Part shown: one piece after another, positions 42,946 through 46,455 of the stretch
Numbering within the stretch: the stretch's first letter is position 1
How the letters are laid out: each line of letters starts with the position of its first letter
Source: Polyangiaceae bacterium
GTDB taxonomy: Bacteria > Myxococcota_A > Polyangia > Polyangiales > Polyangiaceae
Assembly (NCBI GenBank): GCA_020848455.1
Contig: JADLAB010000386.1
Coordinates: 1 to 51,806, forward strand
Length of the DNA stretch: 51,806 nt
Direction of reading: 5' to 3'
The notes under the pieces: model-generated
The model's database searches: none
What the model saw: only the letters and a program-made list of their open reading frames with translations
What the model was told of the DNA's origin: nothing
Made by a program: the position numbers and the translations under genes

Positions 42946-43374
42946 TCACAGCCCGCGCGGGACCTTGTCGAGGTCGACCATGCTGAGCGCGTGCCGGATG
43001 AGCGCGCTCCGGTTCGCCTTGGTGAAGCCACGCCGCTTGAGCTCGGTCACCATGCGGTCGAGCTCGGCCAGGGCGTCCAGGTACATGGAGATGCAGATCA
43101 CCTTGTAGTGCTCCGGGCGGTCCTTCGGACCGAGCGCGCGCCCCGCGCCGTCGCCCCGCCTTGCGGCGTAGAACGCGCCGTGCAGCACGCCCTCCACCTC
43201 GTCTCGGTCGAAGAGCGCGTCGGCGGCAGCGCGCGTGCTGCGCGCCGCGCTCCCCGTCCCAGCGAGGTCGCGGGCGCTGCCCTCGACGGTCGCGTAGTGC
43301 CTGGTGTCCCCGTCCGAGGTCCGGTCGGCGCCGTCGGTTCCGAGCTGTCCACTTCTCGTCATGCGCGTCTCCAT
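42946..43374 (-). CDS. ribbon-helix-helix (CopG-like) DNA-binding protein, candidate partner of the zinc-finger ParA
   Basis: The protein (142 aa) has a polar, probably flexible N-terminal half and a C-terminal ribbon-helix-helix motif (about 92-133). The motif comprises a short beta strand KVICISMYLD, then helix ALAELDRMVTELKRR and helix NRSALIRHALSMV, in the CopG/Arc/ParG arrangement. Such proteins bind operators or centromere-like sites as dimers. The ATG is 9 nt after the stop of the ParA gene, and GAGG lies 7 nt before it, so the pair is one operon. In plasmid systems small RHH proteins (ParG-like, Omega) are ParA partners; that role here is inferred from position and fold. Confidence 0.8.
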   Translation of the reverse strand: METRMTRSGQLGTDGADRTSDGDTRHYATVEGSARDLAGTGSAARSTRAAADALFDRDEVEGVLHGAFYAARRGDGAGRALGPKDRPEHYKVICISMYLDALAELDRMVTELKRRGFTKANRSALIRHALSMVDLDKVPRGL

Positions 43375-43383
43375 TTGCTCGCC

Positions 43384-44784
43384 TCAGCCCGTCGCCAGGA
43401 GCTCCGCCCCGCGCTGGGATCGCTCGCTCGCCGCCGCTTCGCTCGCAGGCGCCACGTCGGCGCCGAGGCCGACGAGCACGCGCTCCACGAGCGCGCGGTA
43501 GTCCTCCGAGCCGTAGGTCCCCGGCGCGTGCTCGAAGATCGAGCGCGCCTGCGCCGGGGCCTCCTTCAGCTTGATGGTGGCACGCACCGGCGCGAGGCAG
43601 CGATCGCCGAAGTGCGAGCGCAGCGTGCCGAGCGCCTCGACGCAGATGTTGGCGCGCGCGTCGAAGAAGGTCGGCAGCACGCCCCAGATCGAGAGCCGGT
43701 GGTGGAGCAGCGCGTTGACGTTCTTGACGGTCTTCAGGACCTGACGCACGCCGACGAGCGACAGGTAGTCGCACGCCACCGGCACGAGCACGCCCTCGGC
43801 CAGGCAGAGGGCGTTCTGGTTCATGAGCGACAGGCTCGGCGAGCAGTCGACGATGACGTAGTCGTAGGCCGCGAGCGCCGGGGCGAGCCGCTGCGCGAGC
43901 ACGCGATCGCGGCTCTGGCGGCCGGCGAGGTAGAGCTCCGCGGCGGCGAGCGTCTCGTTCGACGGCAACAGATCGAGGTTCGGGCGCACGTTCTGGACGG
44001 CGTCGGCCGGGCGCAGACCCATCACGAGCACGTGGTAGAGCGAGCGCTCGGCCGAGGCGCCGAGCGACACCGCCACGTTGCCCTGCGAGTCCGTGTCGAC
44101 GAGCAGCACGCGCTTGCCCCGGTCCGCGAGGCCCGCCGCGAGGTTCACCGAGGTGGTGGTCTTGCCCGTGCCGCCCTTGTGGTTGAAGACCGCGATGCAG
44201 CGCGGCGCCGGCTCGCGCCCCTCGGCGTGAGCGGTCGGAGCCGGCGACACGGGCGCGCGCGGCGCGCGCGGCGCTGCCGCCGCCGCGGCGCTACGCGTCG
44301 GGCTCGAGGCCCGCGCGGCCGGGGCCACCGCCTGAGCGTGCGGCGCCACCGGCACCGCGGCGACACCCGCCACCCCGACGGCCGCGGGGATCGCGCTCGC
44401 GCGCAGCGTCGCGGGCGCGGCCTCGGGCGCCGCCGGGACGCGCTCGCTCCCCTGCTCCGCGGCGGGCCCTGCAGCCTCGCTCGAGCCGCGCGCCACGTCG
44501 CCGAGGCGCGCGCCGGCCGCCTCGCGCACGATGAGCGAGCGGCACGCCATGCTGCAGGCGTGCTTGCGAGCGCCCGCCACGTAGAGCACCTGCGACACGA
44601 GGCTCACGGCGAAGCGCTTGGCGCAGCCGTCGCACGCGACGCTGCCCGCCCCGGCGTGGCTGTGATCGAGGCACGTCTGGCTGCAGAAGAACAGGAAGCC
44701 CCCGTCCCGCTCCTCCATCTGGTAGCGGAACGTGACGTCGAAGTCGTTTCCACAGACGCTGCAGGCTTCGCGCAAGGTGGCCAC
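43384..44784 (-). CDS. ParA-family ATPase with duplicated N-terminal zinc fingers
   Basis: The protein (466 aa) starts at a GTG (44784) with GAGGAG 8 nt upstream. Two adjacent zinc-finger-like units have the same spacing: Cys8/11 with Cys34/38, and Cys51/54 with Cys77/81, each CX2C-X22-CX3C. They resemble TRASH/MYM-type fingers. An Ala/Pro-rich linker (about 90-192) leads to a ParA domain: deviant Walker A KGGTGKTT (203-210), then LLVDTDSQGN (Walker A') and DYVIVDCSPSL (Walker B). ParA ATPases position DNA or protein cargo by cycling on the nucleoid. No parB is nearby; an RHH protein follows instead. An in-frame GTG at 44835 is less likely. Confidence 0.88.
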   Translation of the reverse strand: MATLREACSVCGNDFDVTFRYQMEERDGGFLFFCSQTCLDHSHAGAGSVACDGCAKRFAVSLVSQVLYVAGARKHACSMACRSLIVREAAGARLGDVARGSSEAAGPAAEQGSERVPAAPEAAPATLRASAIPAAVGVAGVAAVPVAPHAQAVAPAARASSPTRSAAAAAAPRAPRAPVSPAPTAHAEGREPAPRCIAVFNHKGGTGKTTTSVNLAAGLADRGKRVLLVDTDSQGNVAVSLGASAERSLYHVLVMGLRPADAVQNVRPNLDLLPSNETLAAAELYLAGRQSRDRVLAQRLAPALAAYDYVIVDCSPSLSLMNQNALCLAEGVLVPVACDYLSLVGVRQVLKTVKNVNALLHHRLSIWGVLPTFFDARANICVEALGTLRSHFGDRCLAPVRATIKLKEAPAQARSIFEHAPGTYGSEDYRALVERVLVGLGADVAPASEAAASERSQRGAELLATG

Positions 44785-44910
44785 GGCGGTCGCTCCTCGC
44801 GCGCCACGACGGGGCGCGCACGCCACCTCGACCACGGCTGCGAGCGCGGGGCCAAGTTCGCGACGCGCACGCGGCGCCGCTCCGCGGGGGCGCCGTCGCG
44901 ACGGGAACGC

Positions 44911-46455
44911 TCAGTGCCGGAAGTGCCGCACGCCGGTGAAGACCATGGCGACCCCCGCGGCGTCGGCCGCCGCGATGACGTCGGCGTCCTTCTTGCTGCC
45001 CCCCGGCTGCGCGACCGCCGTCACGCCGTGACGCACGGCGAGCTCGAGCCCATCGGGGAACGGGAAGAAGGCGTCCGAGGCGAGGACGCTCCCCTTGGCG
45101 CGCTCGGCCGCCTTCGCACAGGCGATGTCGACGCTCTGGACGCGCGACATCTGCCCCGCTCCGACCCCGACCACCTGGGTCCCGCGCGCCAGCACGATGG
45201 CGTTCGACTTGACGTGCTTGCACACGCTCCAGGCGAAGGCGAGGCTCGCGAGCTCCTCGGGCGTGGGCGCCCGCTTCGTCACCACCTTGCCCGCGGCCAC
45301 CTCGCCCGTCCCCGTGGCATCCGCGTCCTGGACGGCGAAGCCGCCACCCACGCGTCGGAAGTCGAGCCCCGACGCCGCCGGAAACACGACGGTCTCGAGC
45401 AGCCGCAGCGCGGCCTTGGCGTGGAGCCTCTCGCGGGCCTCCGGCGTGAACGACGGAGCGATGATGCACTCGAGGAACGTCTCGGCGAGGATCTCCGCGG
45501 TCGCCGGATCGACCGTGCGGTTCAGCGCCACGACACCGCCGAACGCGCTCACCGGATCGCCCTCGCGCGCGAGCCGATAGGCCTCCGCGAGCGAGCGCGC
45601 GCTGGCGAGGCCGCACGGATTGCCGTGCTTGATGACCGCAGCCGCCGGGCTCTCGTGCTCGCGCAACACTTCAATTGCCGCGTGCAAATCAAGGTAATTG
45701 TTGAACGAAAGCTCCTTGCCGCCGAACTGCTCCGCGGCGCACAGGCTGGTCGGCGGCGCGGTCCGCTCGCGGTACAGGGCCGCCGACTGATGGGGGTTCT
45801 CGCCGTAGCGGAGCGCGGCGACGCGCTCGAGCGCCACCGTGAGGTAGCGCGGCAACGGATGGTGCCCAGGCGCCGGTACCGTATCGGTCGAGAGGTAGCT
45901 CGAGATGGCGCCGTCGTACGCGGCGGTGTGCGCGAAGACCTTGGCCGCGAGCCAGCTCCGGGTCTCGGCGCCGAGGCCACCCGTGCGCTCGAGCTCCTCG
46001 ACGAGCAGCGCGTAGTCGGTCGGGTCACAGACGGCGGCCACGCGCGCGTGGTTCTTGGCGGCGCTGCGCAGCATCGACGGGCCGCCGATGTCGATGTTCT
46101 CGATGATGTCCTCGCGGCTGGCACCGGCGCGCGCCGCGGTGCGCTCGAAGGGGTAGAGGTTCACGACCACGACGTCGATCGGGGCCGCCCCGAGGCGCAC
46201 GAGGTCGGCGTCGTCGCGACCGAGGCGCGCGAGCAGGCCGCCGTGGACGCGCGGGTGCAGCGTCTTGACCCGGCCGTCCATGACCTCGGGCGAGCCCGTG
46301 AAGTCCTCGACCGAGCGTGCCGGCACCTCGGCGTCGCGGAGCGCCTTCAGCGTGCCGCCCGTCGAGAGCAGCTCGAAGCCGTGGCGCACGAGCGCCCGAG
46401 CGAAGTCGACGATGCCGGTCTTGTCGGAGACGGAGAGGAGCGCGCGGCGTTGCAT
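44911..46455 (-). CDS. purH: bifunctional AICAR transformylase/IMP cyclohydrolase
   Basis: PurH catalyses the last two steps of IMP synthesis, using 10-formyl-THF (made by FolD). The 514-residue protein begins RRALLSVSDKTGIVDFARAL (IMP cyclohydrolase domain, ~1-195, with STGGTLKAL and KTLHPRVHGGLLA). It continues into the AICARFT domain with LRYGENPHQSAA, KELSFNNYLDL, VIKHGNPCG and C-terminal SDAFFPFPDGLE. The ATG at 46455 is the conserved start. Confidence 0.98.
   Translation of the reverse strand: MQRRALLSVSDKTGIVDFARALVRHGFELLSTGGTLKALRDAEVPARSVEDFTGSPEVMDGRVKTLHPRVHGGLLARLGRDDADLVRLGAAPIDVVVVNLYPFERTAARAGASREDIIENIDIGGPSMLRSAAKNHARVAAVCDPTDYALLVEELERTGGLGAETRSWLAAKVFAHTAAYDGAISSYLSTDTVPAPGHHPLPRYLTVALERVAALRYGENPHQSAALYRERTAPPTSLCAAEQFGGKELSFNNYLDLHAAIEVLREHESPAAAVIKHGNPCGLASARSLAEAYRLAREGDPVSAFGGVVALNRTVDPATAEILAETFLECIIAPSFTPEARERLHAKAALRLLETVVFPAASGLDFRRVGGGFAVQDADATGTGEVAAGKVVTKRAPTPEELASLAFAWSVCKHVKSNAIVLARGTQVVGVGAGQMSRVQSVDIACAKAAERAKGSVLASDAFFPFPDGLELAVRHGVTAVAQPGGSKKDADVIAAADAAGVAMVFTGVRHFRH

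Follow-up and report, generated by a model that had tools for sequence, protein, structure and literature searches.

The 51,806-nucleotide window that we analyzed (the whole stretch of DNA from a Polyangiaceae bacterium) encodes a ParA-type ATPase with two predicted zinc fingers at its N terminus, followed by a gene for a putative ribbon-helix-helix (RHH) protein (Table 1). The pair is chromosomal, present in single copy, and largely vertically inherited in Myxococcota. We propose, with about even confidence for and against, that it constitutes a chromosomal ParA/RHH positioning module apart from canonical ParABS, in which the RHH protein would serve as the DNA adaptor and the fingers would provide an extra contact. 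That the pair positions cargo on the nucleoid, as the first-pass annotation of this DNA had suggested, is a good inference, and the underlying binding of DNA, contact between ParA and RHH, and cargo are predicted. The new elements are the zinc fingers, the single-copy chromosomal conservation, and partners that are separable in some lineages.

Table 1. Features of the fingered ParA-RHH locus in the window
Feature	Position	Strand	Remarks
RHH partner gene	42946..43374	-	142 aa, 9 nt past the ParA stop
RHH domain	42949..43113	-	HYKVICISMY strand plus two helices
Conserved N-terminal acidic/aromatic motif of partner, FDRDEVEGVLHGAFY	43168..43212	-	Candidate ParA contact
Zinc-finger ParA gene	43384..44784	-	GTG start, 466 aa
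Soj-type ParA ATPase domain	43465..44205	-	KGGTGKTTT, D232-x-QGN, DCSPSL
Ala/Pro-rich disordered linker	44206..44502	-	Long only in Polyangiaceae
Finger 2, Cys51/54/77/81	44542..44634	-	Finger retained in one-finger relatives
Finger 1, Cys8/11/34/38	44671..44763	-	zf-FCS/TRASH-like treble clef
Conserved promoter/operator-like element, AACTTGGCCC-N13-GTGGTC	44830..44858	-	Upstream of ParA
purH	44911..46455	-	Conserved upstream neighbor in Polyangiaceae; context, outside the module

The ParA and RHH genes form a conserved chromosomal pair

In all 123 loci containing both genes, the RHH gene followed ParA on the same strand, at a median of 23 nucleotides, the distance being counted from the conserved segment of RHH, and all 80 loci from named genomes were among those with this gene order. 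None of the refuting outcomes named in the first-pass annotation was observed. The lack of an adjacent parB that it noted is confirmed: the RHH gene is found beside the window ParA instead, and the sole parB match of the genome sits on contig C274, apart from the fingered ParA. A separate canonical ParAB is present elsewhere in the same genome. The position of the pair near dnaA or parB was not consistent across five complete genomes, and neither a cluster of centromere-like sites nor an RNA element was identified. Genes upstream of ParA on the same strand included purH (56 loci) and lon (19 loci); in Polyangiaceae, purH usually precedes the pair.

Of 75 loci, 67 had an A/T-rich stretch with TTGGCC ahead of the ParA start, at a density about thirty times that in whole loci, and the window version, AACTTGGCCC-N13-GTGGTC, is unique in its genome. 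TTGGCC-like words occurred in relatives more than did reversed controls and were often located ahead of other open reading frames, suggesting that the element is more likely a promoter element than a dedicated RHH operator. The word CTTCGATAA, possibly a -10 element, also recurred upstream of ParA (L091, L102, L103, L114, L116, L117, L120, L123, and L126-L129), with an upstream density about forty times that in whole loci.

The finger region was found in 35 of 39 genomes of the order Polyangiales and the RHH protein in 37 of 39, with one RHH copy in each, and with Sorangium cellulosum, Minicystis rosea, Polyangium, and Labilithrix among the named carriers. In samples of 191 genomes of the class and 286 of the phylum, two-finger proteins occurred in Polyangiales and in several further families belonging to the phylum, whereas one-finger proteins were seen in other families within the class; these tallies are upper bounds because weak hits below E 0.01 to proteins other than ParA are counted in them. 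The patterns used to scan genome contigs were biased to the Polyangia-type P-loop. Three causes of apparent absence were observed: a contig edge (G001), loss of ParA with retention of RHH (G003), and loss of both genes. In G003 (locus L180), ParA is cleanly gone between purH and RHH, leaving behind the TTGGCC element together with an intact RHH gene. A lineage that we take to be Bradymonadia-like (family f37) and some others kept the fingered ParA, with RHH detectable nowhere in the genomes examined. The two genes are therefore separable, and neither strictly needs the other.

A tree of the ATPase domain (63 rows) broadly tracked taxonomy, which is consistent with vertical descent, with weak deep forks. 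RHH was missing from several two-finger branches of this tree, and finger number changed more than once. The resemblance to plasmid partition initially pointed out for the pair holds for the combination of ParA with an RHH partner but not for its setting, which is chromosomal and single copy. A plasmid origin was rejected after plasmid searches with the whole protein matched only the ATPase part, and neither the fingers nor the RHH domain had a match in any plasmid record. Also rejected were a defense system (PADLOC matches at the P-loop level only) and a phage origin (PHROGs matches to the ATPase only and one IMG/VR contig with an RHH relative and no ParA).

Two treble-clef fingers precede the ParA ATPase

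Both finger units at the ParA N terminus have the spacing CX2C-X22-CX3C, confirming in the 466-residue open reading frame what had been read from the window. All eight cysteines were invariant in 29 orthologues, indicating that the pattern is more than chance. The zf-FCS (MYM-type) profile scored 27.6 bits against the finger region scanned alone and 20.4 bits in the full-length ParA scan, relative to a cutoff of 22.4, and was matched by 21 of the 29 members (E up to 1). Ribosomal L24e was among the PDB profile matches, and the hairpin-hairpin-helix order of a treble clef occurs twice in the ParA structure model. By profile and model, the fingers, originally called TRASH/MYM-like, belong to the zf-FCS/TRASH/L24e treble-clef group. 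We infer zinc binding from the cysteine conservation, profile matches, and model. The further suggestion of a metal-responsive cargo found no support: no metal-handling gene or metal riboswitch adjoins the pair and the role of the fingers appears structural. We found no description of a zinc-finger ParA in the open-licence papers searched, in agreement with the first-pass annotation.

Fingers 1 and 2 of the window protein are identical at 10 of 38 positions, a modest similarity, and their finger-to-finger score was reached by 73 of 2000 cysteine-preserving shuffles. In several relatives, this score was 65 to 84 versus about 20 for shuffles, and such unmistakable similarity supports the proposed origin of the two fingers by internal duplication. 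The finger of one-finger relatives aligns with finger 2 of the window protein. For most of the linker that follows (about residues 95 to 190), pLDDT values were below 50, in line with the disorder first ascribed to it, but in the comparison of 29 orthologues it was mostly missing outside Polyangiaceae. Judged by these sequences, the long linker is a Polyangiaceae trait and not a defining feature of zinc-finger ParA.

Ten loci, drawn from three other families, carry a gene for a conserved, receptor-like membrane protein of 480 to 510 residues that follows the module on the same strand, either after ParA (L139-L143 and L158) or after ParA-RHH (L154-L156 and L176). Two transmembrane stretches are likely in this protein, which has no clear match in Pfam and is a candidate cargo or receptor. 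In L145, L147, and L150, a gene for a TrmL-like RNA methyltransferase follows the fingered ParA instead of RHH.

The strongest rival to a positioning module with an RHH adaptor is that the fingers carry the cargo, such that ParA would position a finger-bound protein, possibly a membrane receptor, and RHH would be mainly an operon autoregulator. The persistence of fingers in lineages without RHH, the receptor-like gene in three families, and the association of RHH with the promoter-like element after ParA loss are all in keeping with this arrangement. We nonetheless consider it unlikely, since the near-universal pairing of the genes and the N-terminal motif shared by almost all partners (see below) suggest more than autoregulation, and the receptor-like gene was not found beside the pair in Polyangia loci.

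The ATPase domain is of the Soj type

The window ParA has a GGAG-type ribosome site ahead of its start codon. Its KGGTGKTTT motif forms a deviant Walker A with signature Lys203 and P-loop Lys208, and this motif, D232, and DCSPSL were invariant or nearly so in the 29 orthologues. The best PDB sequence match of the domain was Thermus thermophilus Soj (E 1.4e-48), and Soj/ParA proteins were the closest solved structures both by sequence and by predicted fold, bearing out the earlier reading of a complete ParA ATPase. The ParA fold and conserved basic residues are present in sequence and model, and the fingered ParA is predicted to bind DNA nonspecifically in an ATP-dependent manner.

FleN was a distant fold neighbor of the predicted structure, raising the alternative that ParA regulates an RHH transcription factor by FleN/FleQ-like antiactivation and has no positioning role. 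The small partner of DNA-binding type and the shared conserved promoter-like element upstream would suit such regulation. However, the closest relatives are Soj/ParA rather than FleN or MinD, FleQ is not an RHH protein, and the neighborhood of the pair showed no conserved gene of a flagellar or other regulon, all of which make this alternative improbable relative to a positioning module.

The partner is a putative RHH protein with a conserved N-terminal motif

The partner has the expected RHH sequence pattern, and its model contains two confident helices, the rest being poor. No Pfam match was obtained for the window protein, and 11 of 27 orthologues gave weak PF01402 matches (best E 0.012). 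Thus, the RHH identity first given to this neighbor is retained by pattern and helices and has weak profile matches in relatives, making it a weaker assignment than the others made here. The strand pattern HYKxxxISxY is invariant in the family and the helix pair is conserved; the positions predicted to face DNA hold V/I, C/S, and S, none of them basic. Foldseek and VIA searches with the RHH model, a poor monomer model, gave no matches.

Of the 103 partners linked to ParA that we checked, 100 had the N-terminal motif by a loose pattern, and two ParA-carrying lineages were without it by this pattern. The motif was degenerate in the RHH gene of ParA-less G003 and missing from a ParA-less RHH relative on an IMG/VR contig. 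Although drawn from very few cases, this degradation or loss without ParA suggests that the motif is a ParA contact. The IMG/VR relative lies at positions 5001-5195 of L202 (IMGVR_UViG_3300025073_000054), a contig that is viral by catalogue listing, with no ParA within 5 kb.

Least probable is a CdbA-like role in nucleoid organization, in which the partner would be a nucleoid-associated protein modulated by ParA. CdbA of Myxococcus xanthus is described in excerpts of PMC7156744 as a Myxococcales RHH protein affecting chromosome organization and segregation; its strand has K8, S10, and Y12, and the partner family has an invariant S and Y similarly placed. Against this, the partner matched none of the RHH structures in the PDB set by sequence, and CdbA as described in those excerpts has 67 residues, no N-terminal motif, and no mentioned ParA neighbor.

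A proposed model for chromosomal positioning by ParA and RHH

In the positioning module that we favor, ATP-bound ParA dimers would coat the nucleoid, and an RHH dimer would bind chromosomal sites, including the promoter of its own operon, via its C-terminal domain and meet ParA via the N-terminal acidic/aromatic motif. RHH may then stimulate ATP hydrolysis by ParA, as SegB acts on SegA and ParG on ParF, to move or tether whatever RHH is bound to. The fingers may form a zinc-stabilized protein- or DNA-contact site on the ParA N terminus, supplying one more cargo, landmark, or dimer contact. This model is supported by the invariant ATPase residues and Soj/ParA-like structure, the constant order of the two genes and the prevalence of the partner motif, the ParG-like layout of the partner, the precedent of chromosomal ParA with RHH in SegAB, and the separate ParAB in the same genome. 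Furthermore, ParA-type ATPases are usually encoded near their partner or cargo genes (PMC10241942). Against the model are the weak RHH profile, the nonbasic DNA-facing residues, the lack of an identified centromere-like cluster, the lineages without RHH or without ParA, and the absence of a fixed dnaA or parB position.

The structures placed by ParA-type ATPases include chromosomes and plasmids as well as carboxysomes, chemotaxis clusters, and flagella. The fingered ParA subfamily with an RHH partner has been kept in one copy by most of an order and through much of a phylum whose genomes are very large, which suggests an unnamed cargo or chromosomal locus needing placement in these cells. A broader possibility, which we hold tentatively and with clearly less confidence than the module itself, is a second, phylum-wide system for chromosome or cargo positioning in Myxococcota, a bacterial counterpart of SegAB in which a finger receptor would allow one ParA to link two partners. 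If so, treble-clef fingers on ParA itself would be a receptor for cargo or a landmark.

Comparison with known systems

SegAB of Sulfolobales combines a chromosomal ParA orthologue with a site-specific RHH partner and no ParB (PMC12284271 and PMC9178275). The Myxococcota pair is alike in joining a chromosomal ParA to an RHH partner and differs in the predicted zinc fingers, zinc being a term found in neither of those papers; homology of its partner to SegB is not demonstrated. Type Ib partition systems such as ParF/ParG and delta/omega pair a small ParA with a partner that has a flexible N terminus and C-terminal RHH domain (PMC11229316 and PMC4498918), and the layout of ParG (PMC11229316), a disordered N terminus and C-terminal RHH, is matched here. 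In contrast to these plasmid systems, the Myxococcota pair sits on the chromosome in one copy, is largely inherited vertically, and has predicted zinc fingers. As in type Ib and SegAB-like partition, an RHH gene lies beside ParA, with the RHH call made by pattern and weak profiles; in those systems, the centromere-like sites bound by the partner often lie ahead of the operon. The Soj-type ATPase domain is common to canonical ParABS (Soj/Spo0J), whereas no ParB is encoded beside the fingered ParA. According to excerpts of PMC7156744, CdbA resembles the partner in being RHH-type, chromosome-related, and of the same phylum, but it has no detectable sequence match to the partner and no ParA partner reported in those excerpts; orthology to CdbA was rejected, with no match among the PDB sequences searched. 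Finally, the fingers share the CX2C...CX3C arrangement of MYM/FCS, TRASH, and L24e fingers, with the zf-FCS profile over its cutoff in the domain scan, but they differ in being joined to a ParA ATPase and, in many lineages, in being duplicated.
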